Position numbers and translations under genes: made by a program
NCBI GenBank assembly: GCA_913776825.1
Contig: CAJYPV010000022.1
Location: 248,001-312,000, forward strand
Origin: Burkholderiaceae bacterium
GTDB taxonomy: Bacteria; Pseudomonadota; Gammaproteobacteria; Burkholderiales; Burkholderiaceae_C
Direction: 5' to 3'
Length of the DNA stretch: 64,000 nt
Part shown: positions 12,409 through 26,621 of the stretch, piece by piece
How the letters are laid out: each line of letters opens with the position of its first letter
How positions within the stretch are numbered: the first letter of the stretch is position 1
The notes under the pieces: generated by a model
Seen by the model: the letters and a program-made list of their open reading frames with translations, nothing else
The model's database searches: none
Told to the model about the DNA's origin: nothing

Positions 12409-15400
12409 TCAGATCAGCGGCGCGATCGCATCGTCGCCATCCTGGCGCTTGAGGGCCTGCAGCAGCGCGTGGTGCACGGGGCTGCCGTCCGCGCTGACTG
12501 GGGCGGTGGTCGACGACGATCCACTCGTCGCCGCATGCGCCCCGTCCGACAGCAACCCGCCCGCATCCGCCGTCCTGGCCGAGGGCGCCGCCAGCAGGTC
12601 GGCCGCCGTCGGCAGCGAGGGATGGCCACCGGCCGCTGACGAGGTCGAGGCTTCCGCCGGCGCCTTCGCGAACCAGACATCCGCCATCTGATGGGTTTGT
12701 CCGTCGGCGGTCTTGTAGCCGGAGATCAGCCCCAGCAGATTGCCGTGGTCCTGCGCAGTGCCGGCCTGCGCATTCAGGTCCAGCTCGACGATGCCCAGCG
12801 AGGCCAGGCTCACCAGCTCGCCCGCATCGGTCTTGCCGTTGCCATTGGCATCGGCCCAGATGCGCAGCTCGCCGAAGGCCGCATCGGCGGCACTGAGCTT
12901 GTGGTCGTGGTTGGTGTCCAGCGCGGCCATCGCCTCGTAGCCGTTGGCCGCATGCTGCCCGTTGGCCAGCACGGTGCCGGTGCCGAAGAGCTCGGCGCCG
13001 GAATTGATCAGCCCATCGCCGTTCAGATCTCGCGCCAGCAGGCCGTTGCCCTGCGCCATCCAGCCCCATTGCTGAACCTGGCCGGTGCCGTTGAGGTCGA
13101 ACAGCACACCCTGCTGCGCGGAGACGGTGGACAGGCCGTGCCCGTCCAGATTGAGCATGATGGGCGTGGCCAGGAACAGCGCATCCAACTGCTGGCCGCT
13201 CATCGCATGGATCGCCTCGGTGCTGAAGGCCAGCACCTGGCTCATGTTGAGCGCGGTCAGGTCGCGGGTCTCGAAGCCGATCACCGCGTCGCTGGTGATC
13301 GCATGGATCTGGTCCACCGTCAGCGCCCGTGCCTGATCGCGGCTGAGTGCCGCCAGCTCGTCGCTGGACATCGTGGCGAAGCCTTCGGAGGAGATCGAGG
13401 CCAACTGCGCCGTCGTCAGCGACATCACCTGCCGGCTGTCCAGCGCCATGATGGCGTCGGTGTTCAGCGCCGCGAGCTGCTCGGTGTGCAGACCGCGCAG
13501 CACCGTGGTGCTGATGCCGTGGATCTGCTCGGCGCCCAGCGCGGCCATCACATCGGTGCTCAGACCGTTCAGCGCCGCGGTGCCCAGGCCGCGGAAGGCG
13601 GATGAGCTCATCGCGGCGAAGTCTTCGGTGGCGAAGCCGTTGAGCTGCGGCAGCGTCATCTCGGCAAACTGGGCGCTCGTCATCAGATGGACCTGATCGG
13701 TGTTGAGCGCCGCGAAATCGGCGGCTTCCATGACGCGGATCGCCCGGCCCGGCAGCAGGGCCACATCCTGCGGATCCAGCGCGGCGATCTGGTCGGGGGA
13801 CCAGGCCATCACCTGCACATTCGTCAGCGCGGACACCTGCGCGGTGCCGAGCGCCGCGATCTGGTCGGTGTGCATCGCCGCCGCTTGCTGATAGGTCAGC
13901 GACGCCACCTGATTCGGCGTCAGGGCCTGGATCTGGGCGAGGCTGAGCAGCCCGATCTGATCGCTGGTCAGCGCGCGCAGCGCGGTGGTGTGCAGCGTCG
14001 CCAGATCCTCGGTCTCGATGCCGGCGAGCTGGGTGCCGTCCAGCAGCGCCAGTTGCGACGAGCGCAGCGCCGCGAATTGGCCGGTGCTGAGTGCGGCGAT
14101 CTCATCCGGCGCCATCGCAGCGATCTGGATCGAGCTGAGCGCAGCGATCTGGCGCGGCGACATCAGCGCGATCTGTCCGGCATCGAGCGAGCCGAACTGG
14201 TCGCTGCTCAGGCCCAGCAAGGCCGCACTGTTGAGCTTGGCCAACTGCTCGCCGCTGAGTCGATCAAGCTGATCGGCCGTCAGCCCGCTCACCTGCCTGG
14301 AAGTCAGCGTGGCGAGCTGCGCATCGGTCAGCGAGGCGACGCTGTCACCGCTCAGCGCGCCGAGCTGGAGGGAGCTCCAGCCCAGGATGGCACGGGTGCT
14401 GACCGCCGCCACATCCACCGCTTCCAGGTTGGCGATCTGGTCGGTCGTCAGTGCGCCGATCTGGCGGGATGACAGCACCGCGTACTGCGCGGTGTTCATC
14501 GCATTCAGGTCGGCCTGGGACCAGGTCGCCAACTGGCTGGTGGTCAGCGCGGCGACCTGATTGGTGCGCATCGCATCGATCTGCGAATCCACCAGCGCAT
14601 TGAGCTGATCGCTGGTGAAGGCCTGCAGCGCCAGCACGCTCAGCCCGCGCACGCCGTCGCTGGACAGCGCATCGATCTGGTCGGGCGTCATGGCCGCGAT
14701 CTGCTGGGTGCTGAGCTGGGCCGTCTGTTGGCTGCCGAAGGCGCCGAACTGCTCGCGACTGAGCTGGCTGATCTGGCCCGAGCCCAGCGCCGCCAGGTAA
14801 CCCGGCCGGATCGCGGCCAGCAGGTCGGGTGCCAGTTGGCCGATTTCGTTGGACGCGATCGCGGCGATCTGGAAGGAGCTGAGCGCGTTGAACTGGGCGG
14901 TCGTCAGCGCATTGAAATTGTCATGGTCCAGGCTGCGGACCTGCGCCGTCGTCAGCGCGACCAGCTGGCTGGTGCGCATCGCCGTCAGCGCGCCCGGGCC
15001 CATCGCATCGAGCTGATCGGCGGTCAGGCCGCGGATGGCCACGGTGTTGATGGCCTGCAGCGCATCGGTGGTCAGCACCACCAGTTGATCGGCGCGCAGG
15101 GCGGCCACCTGGCCGGGATTGAGCACTGCGGCCTGGGCGCTGCTCAGCGCGCCGACCATCGCCACATCCAGCGCCTGGATCTGCGCGGTGCTCAACGAGC
15201 GGATGACGGTGCCGGACAGCGCGCCGAAATCATCGGTCTGCAGCAAGGACACCTGGTCGGTCGTCAGGCCGCGGAATTGCGCGGAACTGAAGGCCGCGAA
15301 CTGGCCGGTCGTCAGGCTGTTGAGGTCATCCGGCGTCAGCGCCGCGAGTTGGGCGGTGGTGAGCGCGCGGATCTGGTTGCTGGTCAGCGCGATCAATTGA

Positions 15401-16899
15401 TCGGTGCCGAGCAGGTCGAGTTGTTCGGTCGTCAGGCCGGCGATGACGCGGGTGGACAGCGCCTGGATGGCGCCGGTGCTCAGCGAGATCAGCTGGTCCG
15501 AGCTGAGGTTCTGCAGCTGCTGGGTCGTCAGCGCACCGGCCTGGCTGCTGGTCAGGGCGGCCAGCTGGGCGCTGTCGAGCGCCGCCAGTTGCGACGGCGT
15601 CAGACCTTTCAGCGCCACGCTGCTGAGCGCGGCCAGGTCGTCCGTGCCAAGCGAGCGGATCTGATCCAGCGACAGGCCCGCCACCTGCTTCGAGGTGAAG
15701 GCGGCGATCTGCAGGGTGCTCAGCGCGGCCAGGTCGTCGGTGTCGAACGCGGCGAGCTGGCGGGTGCTGATGGTGCTGATCTGGTTGGTGCGCAGCGCGC
15801 CGAGCTGATCGCTGTCCATCGCCGCCAGCACCTCGGGCCGCAGGCCGGCGAGGGCCGAGCTGCTCAGGGCCCGCAGTTCATCGGTGCTGAAGGAGGGCAG
15901 TTGCTCGCTGTGCAGGCCGATCAACTGGGTCGACGTCAGGCTCGCGACCTGGCGACTGGTCAGTGCATCGAGCTGGTCCGAGCTGAGCGCGGCCAACTGC
16001 GAGGAGGCGATCGCGCGCAGGCCCTTGGTGCCGATGGCGGCGAGGTCCTCGCCTTCCAGCGCGCGGATCTGCGCGGTGCTCAGTGACTTGATCTGCAGCG
16101 TGCCGACGGCCGCCATCTGCTCGGTGCTCAGCGCCGCGAGCGTGTCGGTGGCCAGGGTGCGGAACTGCTGGCTGCTGAGCGCCGCGACCTGCCGCGATTC
16201 CAGCGCGACGATGGTGTCCGAGGCCAGTTGGCTGACCGCCGTGGTGGTGAGGTTGCGCACCGCCTGGGTGTTGAGCGCATGCAGCGACTCGCTTGCCATT
16301 GCATTGAGCTGCTGCGCGCTCAGGCCCTTGCTCTGGCTGCCGCTGATCGTGGCGATCTGGGCCGTGCCCAGCACATTGAGCTGATCCACCGACAGCGCGG
16401 CGATCTGCACCGTGTTCATCGCCTTGACCTGGCTGGTGCTCAGCGCGGCGACTTCATCCAGCGCCAGCAGGCCGATCTGGGTGCTGCCCAGGCCACGCAC
16501 CTGGATCGAGGTCAGCGCCTGGATCTGGCTGCTGTCCAGCGCCGAGAACTGGTCGCTGTCCATGCGGCGCAGCCGGTCGATGGTCAGCGAGGGAATCTGG
16601 GTCGGCGTCAGCGCATGGATCTGGTCACTGGTCAGCGCCGCGAGCGAGGCGGTGGTGAGCGTGCGCAGCGCGCCGGTGTTGAGCGCCTGGATGTCCGTCA
16701 GCTCCATCGCCGACAGCTGGCCCGACGCGAGGTAGTTGAGCTGCCGGGCGGTCAGGGCCGAGACCTGGATCGTGGTCAACGCCACCACCTGCTCGGCGCT
16801 CAGCAGCGCCCACTGCGCACCGCTCAGCGTGGCGAGCTGGGCGGTGGTCAGGGCGGCGATCTGCTCAGGCGTGAGCGCGGTGACGTCGAAAGTGGCCAT
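12409..16899 (-). CDS. giant octapeptide-repeat protein (smaller paralog) with C-terminal Ca-binding-like domain
   Basis: Start proposed at MATFDVTALTPEQIA (16899; the ORF track extends to 16920). 154 consecutive 8-aa units (consensus ALSTxQIx), then PIMLNLDGHG...DLNGDGLINSGAELFG...DTNHDHKLS...DANGNGKTDAGEL and C-terminal APLI. Confidence 0.9.
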   Translation of the reverse strand: MATFDVTALTPEQIAALTTAQLATLSGAQWALLSAEQVVALTTIQVSALTARQLNYLASGQLSAMELTDIQALNTGALRTLTTASLAALTSDQIHALTPTQIPSLTIDRLRRMDSDQFSALDSSQIQALTSIQVRGLGSTQIGLLALDEVAALSTSQVKAMNTVQIAALSVDQLNVLGTAQIATISGSQSKGLSAQQLNAMASESLHALNTQAVRNLTTTAVSQLASDTIVALESRQVAALSSQQFRTLATDTLAALSTEQMAAVGTLQIKSLSTAQIRALEGEDLAAIGTKGLRAIASSQLAALSSDQLDALTSRQVASLTSTQLIGLHSEQLPSFSTDELRALSSSALAGLRPEVLAAMDSDQLGALRTNQISTISTRQLAAFDTDDLAALSTLQIAAFTSKQVAGLSLDQIRSLGTDDLAALSSVALKGLTPSQLAALDSAQLAALTSSQAGALTTQQLQNLSSDQLISLSTGAIQALSTRVIAGLTTEQLDLLGTDQLIALTSNQIRALTTAQLAALTPDDLNSLTTGQFAAFSSAQFRGLTTDQVSLLQTDDFGALSGTVIRSLSTAQIQALDVAMVGALSSAQAAVLNPGQVAALRADQLVVLTTDALQAINTVAIRGLTADQLDAMGPGALTAMRTSQLVALTTAQVRSLDHDNFNALTTAQFNALSSFQIAAIASNEIGQLAPDLLAAIRPGYLAALGSGQISQLSREQFGAFGSQQTAQLSTQQIAAMTPDQIDALSSDGVRGLSVLALQAFTSDQLNALVDSQIDAMRTNQVAALTTSQLATWSQADLNAMNTAQYAVLSSRQIGALTTDQIANLEAVDVAAVSTRAILGWSSLQLGALSGDSVASLTDAQLATLTSRQVSGLTADQLDRLSGEQLAKLNSAALLGLSSDQFGSLDAGQIALMSPRQIAALSSIQIAAMAPDEIAALSTGQFAALRSSQLALLDGTQLAGIETEDLATLHTTALRALTSDQIGLLSLAQIQALTPNQVASLTYQQAAAMHTDQIAALGTAQVSALTNVQVMAWSPDQIAALDPQDVALLPGRAIRVMEAADFAALNTDQVHLMTSAQFAEMTLPQLNGFATEDFAAMSSSAFRGLGTAALNGLSTDVMAALGAEQIHGISTTVLRGLHTEQLAALNTDAIMALDSRQVMSLTTAQLASISSEGFATMSSDELAALSRDQARALTVDQIHAITSDAVIGFETRDLTALNMSQVLAFSTEAIHAMSGQQLDALFLATPIMLNLDGHGLSTVSAQQGVLFDLNGTGQVQQWGWMAQGNGLLARDLNGDGLINSGAELFGTGTVLANGQHAANGYEAMAALDTNHDHKLSAADAAFGELRIWADANGNGKTDAGELVSLASLGIVELDLNAQAGTAQDHGNLLGLISGYKTADGQTHQMADVWFAKAPAEASTSSAAGGHPSLPTAADLLAAPSARTADAGGLLSDGAHAATSGSSSTTAPVSADGSPVHHALLQALKRQDGDDAIAPLI
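13183..16878 (-). repeat. 154 x 24-bp (8-aa) coding tandem repeat array
   Basis: Hand parse: ALTPEQIA|ALTTAQLA|TLSGAQWA|...|AMSGQQLD; 14 + 154x8 + 257 = 1503 aa, matching the ORF length exactly. Confidence 0.95.
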
Positions 16900-16925
16900 G
16901 CGGAGTTGCCGGGGAACCATCGGGG

Positions 16926-16987
16926 ATCGATCAAGGATCGATCAGGCATCGATCGGGAATCGATCAGAAATCGATCAGGCATCGAGA
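16926..16987. repeat. 11-bp tandem direct repeat array (ATCGATC core), six units, last one degenerate
   Basis: ATCGATC starts at 16926, 16937, 16948, 16959 and 16970, with ATCGAGA at 16981; spacing exactly 11 bp, just upstream of the small paralog start. Confidence 0.9.
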
Positions 16988-17092
16988 ACCAAGGCGCGAT
17001 CGGAGCCCTGTCGGCATTGTCCGCCGCCGGGGTCGGGCACCGGGCGTGAAAACTTCACAGCGTCGCGAGGCACGGCCGATCGGTCGCCCCAA

Positions 17093-17120
17093 GGAAAACC
17101 GGGGGCGCGAGGCCCCCGGT
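17093..17120 (-). terminator. rho-independent terminator of the large octad-repeat gene
   Basis: Minus-strand ACCGGGGGC-CTCGC-GCCCCCGGT perfect 9-bp stem followed by TTT, 13 nt past the stop codon. Confidence 0.85.
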
Positions 17121-17132
17121 GTCGTGCAGCGC

Positions 17133-20100
17133 TTAGATCAGCGGCGTGTTGTTCACATCGTCGTCATGCAGCTTGGGCTTGTAGGCCGCCGCCAGCAGGT
17201 CGTTGTTGATGTGATCGGTGGACGCCGTCGTCGCCGTTGTCGTCGCCGTGCCCGCGGCGGCTGCCGTCCCCGCCGCTGCGGTGCCGCCGGAGGCCGCGGC
17301 CGAGCTGGCCGGGTCGCCGAGCAGGTGGCCGCTGGGCGCTGCCAGCAGATCGCCCAACTGCACCGTGGAGGCGCCGGTGGCGGTCTGCGAAGCACCGTCC
17401 TTGGCGAACCAGACGTCGGTCATCTCATGCGTGCTGCCATCCGCCTTGGTGAAGCTGGAGACCAGACCCAGGACGTTGCCGTTGTCCACCGCGTTGCCCT
17501 TCAGGGCATTCAGGTTGAGGTCGATGATCCCCAGTTCCGCCAGGCCCTTGAGCTCGCCGGCATCGGTCTTGCCGTCATGGTTGGCATCCACCCAGACCGA
17601 CAGCTTGTTGAAGGCCGCGTCCTGCGCATTGATGTGGCCATCGTGGTTGGTGTCCAGCGAGGCGAGGGCGGTGAAGCCGTCCGCACCCTTGTGACCATTG
17701 ACCACGGTGCCCGCGCCGAACAGTTCCGCGCCGCTGTTGATCTGGCCGTCGCCGTTCAGATCCATTGCCAGCAGACCGTCGTTGCCGCCCACCCAGCCCC
17801 ACTTGTTGGTGTGGCCGGTGTTGTTGACGTCGAAGTGCACGCCCTGGCTGGCCGACAGCGTCTGGATGCCATTGCCGTCCAGGTCCAGCACGATCGGGCT
17901 GGCCAGGAACGGGGCATTGATCTGCTCGTTGCTCCAGCCGGCCTTCTGATCCGAGGTCATCGCCAGCACCTGCTCCATGTTCATGGAGGCCAGATCCTGG
18001 GTTTCCCAGCCGACGAACTGATCCGAGGTCATGGCGACGATCTGATCCGTCGTCAGGCCCTGAATCTGGATCGAGGTCAGCGCCTTGATGTCTTCGGAGC
18101 CGAAGGCCAGGATCTGGTCGGTCGAGAAGGCATGCACCTGCGCCGAGGTCAGCGACATGAAGTGGCTGCTGGTCATCGCGCCGATGTCGTCGGTGGTCAG
18201 CGCCGCGATCTGGTCGGTGCCCAGGGCGCGGATCTGTGCCGTGCTGAACTCATGCACCTGGTCGGTCGTCAGCGCCGCGATCTGATCCGTGCCGAAGGCA
18301 TGGACCGCCGCCGTGCTCAGCGCATGGATGCCGGCAGTCGTGATCGAGGCGATGTCCCCGGTCTCGATGCCGATGATCTGCGCGCTGCTCACCGCGCCCC
18401 ATTGCGACGCGGTCAGGGCATGGATCTGGTCGGAGCTGAAGGCTTCGAAGTCCGCCGAGCCGAAGGCCTGCATGTTGGCGCTGCTGATGACCGCGAGGTC
18501 ACCGCTGTCCAACGCCGCCACCTGGTCGGTGGTCAGCGCATGCAGCTGGGCCGAGTTCAGGGCGAACACCTGGCCGGAGGTCAGGGCCTGCACATCGTCG
18601 GTCGCCATCTGGCTGATCTGCAGCGTGCTGAGCGACGCCACCTGCGCCGTCGACAGCGCCGCGATCTGGTTGGAGTCCAGCGCTTCCAGTTGAGCGCTGT
18701 CCAGCGAGCGGATCGCCAGGGTGCTCAGGGCGCGCAGGTCCACCGTCTCGAAGGCGGCCATCTGGTCGGTGGTCAGACCATCGACCTGGGCCGAGGTCAG
18801 CACCGCGGCCTGGGTCGAGCTCAGCGCCACGATCGCTTCGGTGCTCAGCGCGCCGATCTGGGCGGAGCCGAGGGCCTGGATCTGTGTCGAGGTCAGCGCG
18901 GCGACATCCTCGCTGGTCATCGTCGAGACCTGGGCCGTGGTCAGCGCCTGGATCTGGCTGTTGGTCAGCGCGCGGATCTGGCCGCTGGTCAGCGCATTCA
19001 GGTCGTCGCTGGTCAGGTTGGCGATCTGCGCGGTGGTGAAGGACTGCACCTGCGCCGTGGTCAGCGCGCCGATCTGGTCGGAGTTCAGCGCCTCCAGCTG
19101 AGCGCTGCTGAGCGCGCGCAGGGCGACGGTGGACAGCGACTTCAGATCACCGGATTCGATCACCGCCATCTGGTCGGTGGTCAGACCCAGCACCTGGGCC
19201 GAGCTGAGCGCCGCGACCTGGGTGGAGCTGAGCGCCACCACCGCGTCGGTCGCCAGCGCGCCGATCTGCGCCGAATTCAGGGCCTGGATCTGGTTGGAGC
19301 TGAAGGCCGCGACATCCTCGCTGGTCATCGTCGACACCTGGCCGGTGGTCAGGGACGCGACTTGCTGCGTGGTCAGCGCACGGACCTGGGCGCTGGTCAG
19401 CGCGTTCAGGTCATCGCTGCTCAGGTTGCTCAACTGGCCGGTGGTCAGCGACGAGACCTGCTGCGTGGTCAGCGCGGCGACCTGGTCGGAGCCGAGCGCG
19501 TCCAGCTGATCGCTGGTCAAGGCGCGCAGCGCGACGGTGGTCAGCGCCTTCAGGTCACCGGTTTCCACCGCGGCGATCTGGTCGGTCGTCAGGCCCGCGA
19601 CCTGGCGAGAGCCCAGCGCAGCGACCTGCAGCGAGCTCAGCGCGACGATCGCGTCCGTGGCCAGCGCGCCGATCTGGGCCGAGCCCATCGCGGCGATCTG
19701 CTGCGTGGTCAGCGCGGCGACATCGGCGGTTTCCATGCTGCCGATCTGGCCGGTCGTCAGGGCCGCGACCTGGGTGGTCGACAGCGCCTTGATCTGCGCG
19801 CTGGTCAGCGCGTTCAGGTCGTCGCTGCTCAGGTTGCTGATCTGGCCGGTGGTCAGGGCGGCGACCTGGTTGGTCGTCAGGGCGGCGATCTGGTCGCTGT
19901 TCAGCGCGTCCAGCTCGGCCGTGGTCAGTGCAGCGACCTGGCCGGTGGTCAGGGCGCGCAACTGGCCGGTGGTCAGCGCGGCGAAGTCATCGGTGGCCAG
20001 CTGCGAGACCTGGGTGGTCGTCAGCGACGACACCTGGGCACTGGTCAGCGCCTGCACCTGGTCGGAGGCCAGCGCTTCCAGCTGATCGCTGGTCAGCGCA

Positions 20101-23100
20101 CGCAGCGCGAGGGTGGACAGGGACTTCAGATCACCCGATTCGATCGCGGCGATCTGGTCGGTCGTCAGACCGGCGACCTGACGCGAGCTCAGCGAGGCGA
20201 CCTGGCCGGAGGTCAGGGCCACGACCGCATCGGTGCTCAGAGCGCCGACCTGGGCCGAGCTGAGCGCGGCGACCTGGTTGGTGGTGAGCGACTGCACGTC
20301 ATCGCTGGTCATGGTCGACACCTGACCGGTGGTCAGCGCGGCCACCTGCTGGGTCGACAGCGCGCGGATCTGGGCGCTGGTCAGCGCATTCAGGTCATCG
20401 CTGGTCAGGTTGCTCACCTGGCCGGTGGTCAGCGCAGCGACCTGCTGGGTCGTCAGCGCGGCGACCTGGTCGGAACCCAGCGCTTCCAGTTGGGCGGAGC
20501 TCAGGGCCTGCAGCGCATTGGTGGTCAGCGACTTGAGATCGCCGGTTTCCAGTGCGGCAACCTGATCGGTCGTCAGACCCAGCACCTGGCGGCTGCCGAG
20601 CGCGCCGACCTGGCCGGAGGTCATCGCCACGATCGCCTCGGTGCTCAGCGCGCCGATCTGGGCGGAGCTGAGCGCGGCGACCTGTTGCGAGGTCAGCGCA
20701 GCCACATCGTCCGAGGCCATGGTGCTGACCTGGCCGGTGGTCAGGGCGGCGACCTGTTGGGTCGACAGCGCCTTGATCTGGGCGCTGGTCAGCGCATTCA
20801 GGTCGTCGCTGGACAGGTTGGCGACCTGGCCGGTGGTCAGTGCGCCGACTTGCGCGGTGGTCAGGGCGGCGATCTGGTCGGAGCCCAGCGCATCGATCTG
20901 GTCGGTGCCCAGGGAGCGCAGCGCCACCGTCGACATCGCCTTCAGGTCGCCGGTTTCGATGGCGGCCATCTGGTCGGTCGTCAGGCCGGCCACCTGCTTG
21001 GTCGTCAGCGCGGCGAACTGGCCGGAACCCAGCGCCACGATCGCGTCGGTGCTCAGCGCGCCGATCTGGCCGGAACTCATCGCCGCGACTTGCGCGGTGG
21101 TGAGCGAGGCGACGTCGTCGCTGGTCATGGTCGAGACCTGGCCGGTCGTCAGCGCGGCGACCTGCGCGGTGCTCAGCGCCTTGATCTGGCCGCTGGTCAG
21201 CGCATTCAGGTCATCGCTGGACAGGTTGCTCACCTGGCCGGTGGTCAGGGCCGCGACCTGCTGCGTCGTCAACGCCGCGATCTGGTCGGAGCCCAGCGCA
21301 TCCAGCTGGCTGCTGTCGAGCGCCCGCAGCGCGGTGGACGACAGCGACTTCAGGTCCGCGGTTTCCAGCGCCGCCATCTGGTCGGTGGTCAGGCCGGCGA
21401 CCTGCTTCGTGGTCAGCGCCGCGACCTGGGTGGAGCCCAGCGCGACGATCGCCTCGGTGCTCAGCGCACCGACCTGGCCGGAGCTCAGCGCCGCGATCTG
21501 GTTGGTGGTCAGCGCGGCCACATCGGCCGATTCCATGCTGCTGATCTGACCGGTCGTCAGGGCCGCGACCTGGGCGGTCGTCAGCGCCTTGATCTGGCCG
21601 CTGGTCAGCGCATTCAGGTCGTCGCTGGTCAGGTTGCTGATCTGGCCGGTGGTCAGGGCGGCGACCTGGTTGGTCGTCAGGGCGGCGATCTGATCGCTGC
21701 CCAGCGCCTCCAGTTCGGCGGAGCTCAGCGCAGCGACCTGACCGCTGGTCAGCGCACGCAGCTGGGCCGTGGTCATTGCGGCGAAGTCATCGGTGGCCAG
21801 TTGCGAGACCTGGGCGGTCGTCAGCGCGGCCACCTGCACGGTGCTCAGCGCCTGGACCTGGTCGGAGCTCAGCGCTTCCAGCTGGTCGCTGGTCAGCGCC
21901 CGCAGGGCCACGGTGGACAGCGCCTTCAGATCACCGGATTCGATCGCGGCGATCTGGTCGGTCGTCAGACCGGCGACCTGGCGCGAGCTCAGCGAGGCGA
22001 CCTGGCCCGAGGTCAGGGCCACGACGGCATCGGTGCTCAGCGCGCCGACCTGGGCCGAGCTGAGCGCGGCCACCTGGGCGGTGGTGAGCGACTGCACATC
22101 GTCGCTGGTCATGGTGGAGATCTGGCCGGTCGTCAGCGCGGCGACCTGCGCGGTGCTCAGCGCCTTGATCTGGCCGCTGGTCAGCGCGTTCAGGTCATCG
22201 CTGCTCAGGTTGGCGACCTGGCCGGTGGACAGGGCGGCGACCTGGGTGGTCGACAGCGCGGCGATCTGGTCGGAGCCCAGCGCATCGAGCTGGCTGCTGT
22301 CCAGCGCGCGGATGGCCGCGGTCGACAGCGCCTTCACATCGCCGGATTCCAGCGCGGCCATCTGGTCGGTGGTCAGACCGGCGACCTGACGGCTGGTCAG
22401 CGCAGCGACCTGCACCGAGCTCAGCGCGACGACCGCATCGGTCGACAGCGCGCCGACCTGGCCGGAGCTGAGCGCGGCCACCTGGCCGGTGGCCAGGGCG
22501 GCGACATCCTCGCTGGTCATGGTCGAGACCTGGCCGGTCGTCAGCGCGGCGACCTGCTGGGTCGACAGCGCGCGGATCTGGCCGCTGGTCAGGGCATTCA
22601 GGTCATCGCTGGTCAGGTTGGCGACCTGGCCGGTGCTCAGCGCGGAGACCTGCAGGGTCGACAGCGCTTCGATCTGGTCGGAGCCGAGCGCATTCAACTG
22701 GTCGCTGGTCAGGGCGCGCAGCGCGGCGCTGTTGAGCGCGCGCAGGTCACCGGTTTCCAGCGCGGCGACCTGGTCGGTCGTCAGGCCGGCCACCTGCTTG
22801 GTGGTCAGCGCGCCGACCTGGGCCGAGGTCAGGGCGACCACGGCGTCGGTGGACAGCGCACCCACCTGACCCGAGCCCAGGGCCTGGATCTGGTTGGTGG
22901 TGAGGGCGGCGACATCGTCGCTGGTCATGGTCGAGACCTGACCGGTCGTCAGTGCGGCGACCTGCGCGGTGCTCAGGGCCTTGATCTGGCCGCTGGTCAG
23001 CGCATTCAGGTCATCGCTGGACAGGTTGGCGATCTGGCCGGTGGTCAGCGAGGCGACCTGCACCGTCGACAGCGCGGCGATCTGGTCGGAACCCAGCGCA

Positions 23101-26100
23101 TCCAGCTGGCTGCTGTCCAGGGCGCGCAGGGCGACGGTGGACAGGGCCTTGATGTCGCCGGTTTCGAGCGCGGCCATCTGGTCGGTCGTCAGACCGGCCA
23201 CCTGGCGGCTGCTGAGCGCGCCGACCTGCGACGAGCTGAGCGCCGCCACGTTGTCGGTGCTCAGGGCAGCGATCTGGCCGGAGCTGAGGGCGGCGACTTG
23301 AGCCGTCGTCAGCGCCTGCACGTCGGCGCTTTCCATGCCGGCGATCTGGGCGGTGGTCAGGGCGGCGACCTGCGCGGTCGACAGGGCGCGGATCTGCGCG
23401 CTGCCCAGGGCGTTCAGGTCATCGGTGGCGAGTGCCACCACTTGCTGGGTGCTCAGCGCGGCGACTTGCGCGGTCGTCAGGGCGGCCACCTGGTCGGAGC
23501 TCAGGGCATCGATCTGGTCGGTCGTCAGGGCGCGCAGGGCTTGCGTGCTCAGGGCCTTCACATCGACGGTCTCGATGGCGCCGACCTGGTCGGTGGTCAG
23601 GCCGCCGACCTGGCGGGTGTTCAGCGGGGCGATCTGGGACGAGCTCAGCGCGGCGACGTTTTCGGTCGACAGGGCGCCGACCTGGCCGGAGCTCAGCGCC
23701 GCGATCTGGGCGGTGCTCAGGGCCTGGACGTCGTCGCTGGTCATCGTCGAGACCTGCGCGGTGGTCAGCGCGGCGACCTGGGCGGTGCTCAGCGCCTTGA
23801 TCTGGGCGCTGGTCAATGCATTCAGGTCATCGCTGGAGAGGTTGGCGATCTGGGCGGTGGACAGCGCGGCGACCTGGGCGGTCGACAGTGCGGCGATCTG
23901 GTCGGAGCCCAGCGCATCGAGCTGGCTGCTGTCCAGCGCGCGGATGGCGGCGGAAGACAGGGCGCGGAGGTCGCCGGTCTCCATGGCGGCCATCTGGTCG
24001 GTCGTCAGACCGGCGATCTGGCGGGTGCTCAGCGCGCCGACCTGGCCCGAGGTCAGGGCCACGATGTTGTCGGTGGAGAGGGCACCGATCTGCGACGAGC
24101 TCAGCGCCTGCACCTGCGCCGAGGTCAGCGCCTGCACGTCGGCGCTTTCCATGCCGGCGATCTGGGCGGTGGTCAGCGCGGCGATCTGGGCGGTGCCCAG
24201 GGCGCGGATCTGGGCGCTGCCCAATGCATTCAGGTCATCGGTGGCCATCGCGGCCACCTGGCCGGTGGTCAGCGCGGCGACCTGGCCGGTCGTCAGCGCG
24301 CCGACCTGGTCGGAATTCAGCGCATCGAACTGGTCGGTGCTCAGCGAGCGGATGGCGGCGGTGGACAGCGCGCGCAGGTCACCGGTTTCCAGCGCGGCGA
24401 CCTGGTCGGTCGTCAGGCCGGCGATCTGCTTCGTGCTCAGCGCGGCCACCTGGCCGGAGGTCAGCGCAGCGACGTTTTCGGTCGACAGCGCGCCCATCTG
24501 GGTCGAGCTCAGCGCAGCGACCTGACCGGTGGTCAGGGCCTGCACATCGGCGCTTTCCATGCTGTGGACCTGGTCGGTCGACAGCGCGGCGATCTGGGAG
24601 GTGCCCAGCGCGCGGATCTGGGCGCTGCCCAGGGCATTGAGGTCATCGGTGGCCATGCCGGCGACCTGGCCGGTCGTCAGCGCGGCGATCTGGCCGGTGG
24701 TCAGGGCGCCGACCTGGTCGGAATTCAGCGCCGCGAACTGGTCGGTGGTCAGCGAGCGGATCGCGCCGGTGGACATGGCACGCAGGTCGCCGGTTTCCAG
24801 GGCGGCCATCTGGTCGGTCGACAGACCGGCGATCTGGCGGGTGCTCAGCGCGGCGACCTGGCTGGAGCTCAGCGCGGCGATGTTGTCGGTGGACAGGGCG
24901 CCGACCTGGGCCGAGCTCAGCGCCTGCACCTGGGCGGTGCTGAAGGCCTGCACATCGGCGCTTTCCATGCCGGCCACCTGCGCGGTGGTCAGCGCGGCGA
25001 CCTGGGCGGTGCCCAGCGCGCGGATCTGGGCGCTGCCCAGGGCATTCAGGTCATCGGTGGCCATCGCGGCCACCTGGCCGGTGGTCAGCGCGGCGACCTG
25101 GCCGGTCGTCAGCGCACCGACCTGGTCGGAATTCAGCGCATCGAACTGGTCGGTCGTCAGCGAGCGGATCGCGGTGGTGGACAGCGCCCGCAGGTCGCCG
25201 GATTCGATCGCGGCGACCTGGTCGGTCGACAGGCCGGCCAGCTGGCGGCTGCTCAGCGCGGCGACCTGGGCCGAGCCCAGCGCCACGATGGCGTCGGTGC
25301 TCAGCGCGGCGACCTGGGCGGAACTCAGGGCCTGGATCTGGCCGGTGGTCAGCGCCTGCACATCGGCGGTTTCCATGCCGGCGACCTGGGCGGTCGACAG
25401 GGCCGCCACCTGGGCGGTGCCGAGCGCGCGGATCTGGCTGCTGTTCAGCGCATTCAGGTCATCGGTGGACAGCACCGCGACCTGGCCGGTCGTCAGCGCG
25501 GCGACCTGGGTGGAGCTGAGCGCGGACACCTGGTCCGAATTCAGCGCTTCGAATTGGTCGGTCGACAAGGCACGCAGGGTGCTGGTCGAGATGGCCTTCA
25601 TGTCGTCCGAGCTGATCGCGGCGATCTGGTCGGTCGTCAGGCCCTTGATCTGGGTGGACGAGAGCGCGCCGATCTGGCCGGAGCTCATCGCCTCGATGGA
25701 ATCGGAGCTCAGCGCGCCCAGCTGGCTGGAGCTGAAGGCGCGGATCTGGGCGGTCGTCAGCGCCTGCACGTCCTCGCTGGCGAAGCCGCCGAGCTGGTCG
25801 GTCGTCAGGGCGGCCAGTTGGGCGGTGGTGATGGCGCGGATCTGCGTGGTGTCCAGCGCGGCGATTTCATCGCTGCTGAACTGACGGATCTGGGCGGTGC
25901 TCAGCGCATTGATCTGCGCGGTGGTCAGCGCGGCGATCTGGTCGGAATTCAGGGCGGCGATCTGGTCGGTGCCCAGCGACTTCACCGCGGCGGTGTTGAG
26001 CGAATGGACCGCATCCGAGGTCAGCGCCGCAGCTTGATCGGAGGTCAGCGCGCCCGCCTGGGTGCTGGTGATGGCTTGCGCCTGCTGGGTGGTCAGGGCG

Positions 26101-26621
26101 GCCACGCCTTCGGTCGAGATCGCGGCGACCTGCTGCGAGTTCAGCGCCTTGATCTGATCGGTCTTGAGCGCCTGGAGGTCGTCCGAGGCCATGGTGCCGA
26201 TCAGGCTGGTCGAGATCGCGGCGACCTGCTGGGAGCTCAGCGAGCGGATCTGGTCGGAGCCCAGCGCATTCAGGTCGTCCGATTCCAGGCCGCGCACCTG
26301 CTGGGTGCTGAGCGAGCCGACCTGGCGGGTGGTCATGCTGCCGAACTGGTCGGAGCCGAGCGAATTCAGCTGCTCGGTGCTGAAGGTGCGGATCGCCGCG
26401 GTGCTCAGCGCGCGCAGGTCATCGGATTCGATCGCCGCGATGTTGCTGGTCGTGAAGAACGACACGGCGCGGGTGCCCAGGCTGGCGAACTGGGCGGTCG
26501 TCAGCGCCTGGAACTGGTCCGAGGTGAAGGCGGCCCAGTCTTCGCTGGTCAATCGGGCGAGCGTCGTCGACGTCAGCGCCTGAATCTGGTCGGTGGACAG
26601 GTTGGTAATCAGCGATGCCAT
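17133..26621 (-). CDS. giant octapeptide-repeat protein (larger paralog) with C-terminal Ca-binding-like domain
   Basis: Start proposed at MASLITNLSTDQIQ (26621; GGAG upstream; the ORF track extends to 26657). 362 consecutive 8-aa units, then PIVLDLDGNG...DLNGDGQINSGAELFG...DTNHDGHIN...DANHDGKTDAGEL and C-terminal TPLI. Confidence 0.92.
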   Translation of the reverse strand: MASLITNLSTDQIQALTSTTLARLTSEDWAAFTSDQFQALTTAQFASLGTRAVSFFTTSNIAAIESDDLRALSTAAIRTFSTEQLNSLGSDQFGSMTTRQVGSLSTQQVRGLESDDLNALGSDQIRSLSSQQVAAISTSLIGTMASDDLQALKTDQIKALNSQQVAAISTEGVAALTTQQAQAITSTQAGALTSDQAAALTSDAVHSLNTAAVKSLGTDQIAALNSDQIAALTTAQINALSTAQIRQFSSDEIAALDTTQIRAITTAQLAALTTDQLGGFASEDVQALTTAQIRAFSSSQLGALSSDSIEAMSSGQIGALSSTQIKGLTTDQIAAISSDDMKAISTSTLRALSTDQFEALNSDQVSALSSTQVAALTTGQVAVLSTDDLNALNSSQIRALGTAQVAALSTAQVAGMETADVQALTTGQIQALSSAQVAALSTDAIVALGSAQVAALSSRQLAGLSTDQVAAIESGDLRALSTTAIRSLTTDQFDALNSDQVGALTTGQVAALTTGQVAAMATDDLNALGSAQIRALGTAQVAALTTAQVAGMESADVQAFSTAQVQALSSAQVGALSTDNIAALSSSQVAALSTRQIAGLSTDQMAALETGDLRAMSTGAIRSLTTDQFAALNSDQVGALTTGQIAALTTGQVAGMATDDLNALGSAQIRALGTSQIAALSTDQVHSMESADVQALTTGQVAALSSTQMGALSTENVAALTSGQVAALSTKQIAGLTTDQVAALETGDLRALSTAAIRSLSTDQFDALNSDQVGALTTGQVAALTTGQVAAMATDDLNALGSAQIRALGTAQIAALTTAQIAGMESADVQALTSAQVQALSSSQIGALSTDNIVALTSGQVGALSTRQIAGLTTDQMAAMETGDLRALSSAAIRALDSSQLDALGSDQIAALSTAQVAALSTAQIANLSSDDLNALTSAQIKALSTAQVAALTTAQVSTMTSDDVQALSTAQIAALSSGQVGALSTENVAALSSSQIAPLNTRQVGGLTTDQVGAIETVDVKALSTQALRALTTDQIDALSSDQVAALTTAQVAALSTQQVVALATDDLNALGSAQIRALSTAQVAALTTAQIAGMESADVQALTTAQVAALSSGQIAALSTDNVAALSSSQVGALSSRQVAGLTTDQMAALETGDIKALSTVALRALDSSQLDALGSDQIAALSTVQVASLTTGQIANLSSDDLNALTSGQIKALSTAQVAALTTGQVSTMTSDDVAALTTNQIQALGSGQVGALSTDAVVALTSAQVGALTTKQVAGLTTDQVAALETGDLRALNSAALRALTSDQLNALGSDQIEALSTLQVSALSTGQVANLTSDDLNALTSGQIRALSTQQVAALTTGQVSTMTSEDVAALATGQVAALSSGQVGALSTDAVVALSSVQVAALTSRQVAGLTTDQMAALESGDVKALSTAAIRALDSSQLDALGSDQIAALSTTQVAALSTGQVANLSSDDLNALTSGQIKALSTAQVAALTTGQISTMTSDDVQSLTTAQVAALSSAQVGALSTDAVVALTSGQVASLSSRQVAGLTTDQIAAIESGDLKALSTVALRALTSDQLEALSSDQVQALSTVQVAALTTAQVSQLATDDFAAMTTAQLRALTSGQVAALSSAELEALGSDQIAALTTNQVAALTTGQISNLTSDDLNALTSGQIKALTTAQVAALTTGQISSMESADVAALTTNQIAALSSGQVGALSTEAIVALGSTQVAALTTKQVAGLTTDQMAALETADLKSLSSTALRALDSSQLDALGSDQIAALTTQQVAALTTGQVSNLSSDDLNALTSGQIKALSTAQVAALTTGQVSTMTSDDVASLTTAQVAAMSSGQIGALSTDAIVALGSGQFAALTTKQVAGLTTDQMAAIETGDLKAMSTVALRSLGTDQIDALGSDQIAALTTAQVGALTTGQVANLSSDDLNALTSAQIKALSTQQVAALTTGQVSTMASDDVAALTSQQVAALSSAQIGALSTEAIVAMTSGQVGALGSRQVLGLTTDQVAALETGDLKSLTTNALQALSSAQLEALGSDQVAALTTQQVAALTTGQVSNLTSDDLNALTSAQIRALSTQQVAALTTGQVSTMTSDDVQSLTTNQVAALSSAQVGALSTDAVVALTSGQVASLSSRQVAGLTTDQIAAIESGDLKSLSTLALRALTSDQLEALASDQVQALTSAQVSSLTTTQVSQLATDDFAALTTGQLRALTTGQVAALTTAELDALNSDQIAALTTNQVAALTTGQISNLSSDDLNALTSAQIKALSTTQVAALTTGQIGSMETADVAALTTQQIAAMGSAQIGALATDAIVALSSLQVAALGSRQVAGLTTDQIAAVETGDLKALTTVALRALTSDQLDALGSDQVAALTTQQVSSLTTGQLSNLSSDDLNALTSAQVRALTTQQVASLTTGQVSTMTSEDVAAFSSNQIQALNSAQIGALATDAVVALSSTQVAALSSAQVLGLTTDQMAVIESGDLKSLSTVALRALSSAQLEALNSDQIGALTTAQVQSFTTAQIANLTSDDLNALTSGQIRALTNSQIQALTTAQVSTMTSEDVAALTSTQIQALGSAQIGALSTEAIVALSSTQAAVLTSAQVDGLTTDQMAAFETVDLRALSTLAIRSLDSAQLEALDSNQIAALSTAQVASLSTLQISQMATDDVQALTSGQVFALNSAQLHALTTDQVAALDSGDLAVISSANMQAFGSADFEAFSSDQIHALTASQWGAVSSAQIIGIETGDIASITTAGIHALSTAAVHAFGTDQIAALTTDQVHEFSTAQIRALGTDQIAALTTDDIGAMTSSHFMSLTSAQVHAFSTDQILAFGSEDIKALTSIQIQGLTTDQIVAMTSDQFVGWETQDLASMNMEQVLAMTSDQKAGWSNEQINAPFLASPIVLDLDGNGIQTLSASQGVHFDVNNTGHTNKWGWVGGNDGLLAMDLNGDGQINSGAELFGAGTVVNGHKGADGFTALASLDTNHDGHINAQDAAFNKLSVWVDANHDGKTDAGELKGLAELGIIDLNLNALKGNAVDNGNVLGLVSSFTKADGSTHEMTDVWFAKDGASQTATGASTVQLGDLLAAPSGHLLGDPASSAAASGGTAAAGTAAAAGTATTTATTASTDHINNDLLAAAYKPKLHDDDVNNTPLI
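17916..26603 (-). repeat. 362 x 24-bp (8-aa) coding tandem repeat array with 408-bp superperiod
   Basis: Hand parse: NLSTDQIQ|ALTSTTLA|...|GWSNEQIN; 18 + 362x8 + 260 = 3174 aa. 'cgctttccatg' recurs at 23327, 24143, 24551 and 24959 (spacings 816, 408, 408). Confidence 0.95.

Follow-up and report, generated by a model that had tools for sequence, protein, structure and literature searches.

A probable lineage-specific intergenic minisatellite in front of a giant ALTTAQ-repeat gene of a Roseateles-type bacterium

The 11-bp tandem array found at positions 16926 to 16985 of the window, upstream of a gene encoding a giant ALTTAQ-repeat protein, is an element of a known kind, an intergenic minisatellite or VNTR, and we consider it very likely that it is specific to this lineage, was produced by slippage or tandem duplication and has been mostly tolerated where it stands. 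The window, meaning here the whole stretch of 64,000 nucleotides that was analyzed, corresponds to positions 248001 to 312000 of contig C22 in a 5.74-Mb genome (G000), and named loci put the gene in Roseateles/Mitsuaria (R. aquatilis, R. chitinivorans, R. noduli, and Mitsuaria chitosanitabida).

Two genes on the minus strand frame the array. The downstream one (12409 to 16899) encodes a 1,496-amino acid ALTTAQ-repeat protein (PF20080) that begins with MATFDV and carries a C-terminal non-repeat domain. Its frame could open at 16920; the start conserved in all 12 relatives compared corresponds to the ATG at 16899 (ATGGCCACYTTCGACGTC), and the array is therefore situated in non-coding DNA, where the leader or promoter of this gene lies. 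The upstream neighbor (17133 to 26621), assigned by domain match, encodes a 3,162-amino acid protein of the same PF20080 type, and its intrinsic terminator (17098 to 17120, minus strand) is a G+C-rich stem-loop kept in 8 of the 12 relatives. As the array lies beyond this terminator, it belongs to the downstream gene's own leader. The region from 12409 to 26621 thus consists of tandem giant ALTTAQ-repeat genes, whose products have non-repeat C-termini with acidic D-x-D/N-x-D-G-like stretches, the larger protein also giving weak EF-hand and dockerin matches. Full-text literature searches returned no paper on ALTTAQ and nothing on tandem repeats of Roseateles.

Five perfect ATCGAT cores occur at 16926, 16937, 16948, 16959, and 16970, in exact 11-bp steps, followed by a degenerate sixth, ATCGAG, at 16981; all these positions, listed in the first-pass annotation, were confirmed, as was the distance to the gene, the last core starting 27 bp from the conserved ATG. 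Tandem Repeats Finder describes the array with a period of 11, 5.5 copies, 83% matches and a score of 78, and describes it better with a period of 33 (2 copies, score 106). Indeed, positions 16919 to 16951 and 16952 to 16984 are identical at 29 of 33 sites, so that the array is a three-unit block present twice, a nested organization that had been missed before. On either side stand degenerate units, AACCATCGGGG (16915 to 16925) and ATCGAGAACC (16981 to 16990); neither these nor the array and its two blocks have a strand assigned. The array is not a product of chance, considering that a third-order Markov null with the composition of this genome yields 1 array with a score of at least 78 and a period that is not a multiple of 3 per 4 Mb. 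The coding repeats do not explain it either, as previously stated, since it is non-coding and unrelated to the 24-bp repeats of the genes.

Of 100 relatives searched at the DNA level, 12 congeners (Roseateles/Mitsuaria) share the gene pair and yielded the corresponding intergenic interval, and we aligned these 12 intervals. The array is missing in 12 of 12, none has ATCGAT in the orthologous interval, and their leaders contain at most one weak 7-bp run. In the nearest relative, G015, identity reaches about 80% in the part of the interval next to the terminator and 95% in the part next to the start codon; G015 is collinear across the array site and exactly 55 bp (5 x 11) shorter. On the plus strand, G015 reads ...GGGGAACGATCTGGAATCGAAGACCAAGG... 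at this site, with only two flanking partial units, and the window reads GGGGAACCATCGGGG, then five units, then ATCGAGAACCAAGG. The alignment matches the two flanking degenerate units of the window with AACGATCTGGA and ATCGAAGACC of G015, respectively; both are therefore common to the two genomes, and the five units are extra in the window. The leaders of the remaining relatives are mostly unalignable. Related genomes consequently differ here by whole units, five with respect to G015, and the 11 other congeners have no array; with one genome per species, this copy-number variation is between species only. The orthologous leader of R. aquatilis (G002) contains a small near-duplication of its own, GAGAGATTCCGA present twice, unrelated to the 11-bp unit.

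These comparisons are compatible with a simple history. A degenerate ancestral direct repeat, such as the one seen in G015 (AACGATCTGGA followed by ATCGAAGACC), would first have grown to about three 11-bp units, through replication slippage or tandem duplication; a subsequent 33-bp duplication would have given about six. The leader of the giant ALTTAQ-repeat gene would thereby have been lengthened by exactly 55 bp, and the array would be tolerated because it falls between the terminator of the upstream gene and the start codon. The 55-bp difference together with the nested blocks makes slippage, proposed in the first-pass annotation, the likely origin of the array. Parsimony favors expansion in this lineage, although G015 may instead have contracted from a longer ancestral array. 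The array is probably near-neutral; by analogy with known repeats, a 55-bp insertion into the leader could change expression, and any such effect would be secondary, through leader length, spacing or RNA hairpins.

Two features of the array itself count against the minisatellite reading. First, the units are only about 83% alike overall, so that the array cannot be very young and has been retained. Second, the cores are better kept than the bases between them, with five perfect ATCGAT in a row in what is a tiny sample, and this could hint at constraint.

To place the array in its genomic context, we counted separate arrays with a period of 4 to 60 that is not a multiple of three and a score of at least 50, in samples of 400 kb from G015 and 464 kb from the genome under study. 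Short tandem arrays with unrelated units proved to be far more frequent in the non-coding DNA of these genomes than expected. In G015, 34 arrays were present in 400 kb, where the Markov null had produced 45 per 4 Mb; with a score of at least 78 required, the numbers were 10 and 0, respectively. In the genome under study, there were 18 in 464 kb against 54 per 4 Mb. The units of the different arrays are mutually unrelated in sequence, and the great majority of the G015 arrays lie outside called genes, the gene calls being crude. A further point against the minisatellite reading is that, among arrays with short units that are not a multiple of 3, none in the 464 kb sampled from its own genome scores higher than the one described here. 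Both further arrays that were checked are also species-specific, namely an 11-bp array of G015 near 919133 without counterpart in G000 and the array of G000 at C22:165526-165575.

Other features of this array landscape were noted. Per base, G015 has about twice as many arrays of non-triplet period as the genome under study, some of them with an 8-bp unit present more than 10 times. Many Roseateles-type arrays begin at or within about 12 bp of a stop codon, often with a TGA-containing unit and a non-triplet period (L188, L203, L186, L191, and L185 around 1501-1545; in G015, L148, L150, L156, L158, and L162). Repeated out of step with the triplet code, such a unit puts a stop codon into each of the three frames; the location of the arrays could reflect mere tolerance beyond the stop, or selection.

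A comparable abundance is known from Burkholderia pseudomallei, whose short-unit VNTRs are mostly intergenic, about 30% lying in ORFs or no more than 40 bp upstream of one (PMC1853098). The two cases share short-unit, mostly intergenic and abundant arrays in a high-GC betaproteobacterium; they differ in that most B. pseudomallei units are 6 to 9 bp long with variation measured between strains (PMC1853098), while here the unit is 11 bp long and degenerate, and the variation is between species only.

Among the functional alternatives, we considered whether the array could be a contingency locus, in which slippage within the species would change copy number and thereby tune expression of the ALTTAQ protein through promoter spacing or leader length. 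Array copy number does alter expression of the phase-variable genes nadA, porA, and hifA/hifB (PMC3899988), and the present case resembles them in having a tandem array between a neighboring gene and the start codon of a large protein, here a giant repeat protein. The five units that separate the sister species also speak for this reading. On the other hand, the units are imperfect (83%), which lowers the slippage rate, and a scan around the array found no sigma-70-like promoter, so that, unlike in those genes, no known promoter element or regulator marks the array. Moreover, many similar arrays are downstream of stop codons, where such control is not expected. A contingency function would be unlikely.

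A different view would make the ATCGAT cores a newly evolved, species-specific operator or rheostat, a chance palindrome that was expanded into a helically phased, multi-site putative binding region setting ALTTAQ expression. We regard this as quite improbable; if true, slippage would here have created a regulatory array de novo. Very unlikely, too, is the version in which a palindrome-recognizing regulator would bind each ATCGAT unit and, helped by the helical-turn spacing, would control the ALTTAQ gene cooperatively, as the first-pass annotation had proposed in calling the array iteron-like and in naming conservation in relatives as something to look for. The five perfect palindromic cores, regularly spaced by 11 bp and situated 27 bp from the ATG, speak for it, as does their better preservation relative to the bases between them. 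However, cooperative operators are expected to have their sites conserved before orthologous genes, and all 12 congeners that have this gene are without the array. Likewise, the 4-core pattern was found nowhere else in 200 related genomes, and the leaders of further ALTTAQ genes (25 loci checked) contained no array of non-triplet period. The claim that all sites face the same side of the DNA holds only in part: the spacing is indeed near one helical turn, but 11 bp differs from the helical repeat of about 10.5 bp, so that five steps add up to a shift of about 2.5 bp (about 85 degrees) and a common face is only approximate.

The spacing itself is not special either. Within the genome, 60 pairs of ATCGAT lie within 36 bp of each other, and among the 50 listed only one outside the array is spaced by 11 bp (C22:370019), so that no genome-wide set of 11-bp-spaced sites was seen among them. 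Three TCGATC in 11-bp steps, with one mismatch allowed, occur at several further loci in the genus, yet equally spaced TCGATC triplets are found there with many periods: 7 (1 locus), 8 (9), 9 (17), 10 (1), 11 (7), 12 (11), 13 (3), 17 (1), and 18 (3), where periods 9, 12, and 18 may include coding repeats. Every such locus is internally regular and has its own period, which is the mark of tandem duplication and not of a protein needing sites 11 bp apart. Tandem duplication also brings helical phasing with it automatically, and for that reason a constant helical-turn spacing of palindromes is by itself no evidence of an operator, a caution that applies beyond this locus.

A recurrent TCGATCARG family of 11-bp period in the genus was considered and rejected, as other periods are as frequent or more so and non-coding DNA shows no excess of TGATCGA; the densities of TCGATC, ATCGAT, and TGATCGA are about equal in coding and non-coding sequence by crude gene calls. 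A second 11-bp TCGATC-type array of the genome, the one at C22:165526-165575 mentioned above (L132:5526-5575), begins at the stop codon of a gene of about 499 amino acids; it has no match at the orthologous site of G015, and G009 has a related run at the end of the orthologous gene.

The term iteron-like also invites comparison with plasmid origins, which share short direct repeats about one helical turn apart. Here, however, the array is not conserved, no Rep initiator gene was present among the neighbors scanned (besides the ALTTAQ genes, a glycosyltransferase, a DUF5672 protein, a GntR/FCD regulator, an MCP, and a FAD protein), and the 376-kb contig bears no sign of a plasmid origin. Typical iterons are also longer than the 11-bp unit.

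Could the array act as RNA? Palindromic units stacked as hairpins in the 5' UTR might affect translation or mRNA stability, and the array alone is predicted to fold better than its shuffles (z = -3.33, -29.1 kcal/mol). The whole leader is nevertheless ordinary (z = -0.40), such folding is expected of any tandem palindrome repeat, the array is not conserved among the 12 congeners, and an Rfam search of the region gave no match; a role of this kind is highly improbable. Finally, a switch in which a Dam-type methylase would read the seven GATC sites that the array carries within about 50 bp can be practically set aside, as a PF02086 (D12/Dam) search of the genome (assembly 94% complete) found no such methylase.

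Taken as a lineage-specific minisatellite, the array points to a more general property: genomes of the Roseateles type contain many short tandem arrays in non-coding DNA that are species-specific and could be of use in strain typing. If this particular array did alter expression, the two sister species would offer a clean natural comparison between a one-unit and a six-unit leader.
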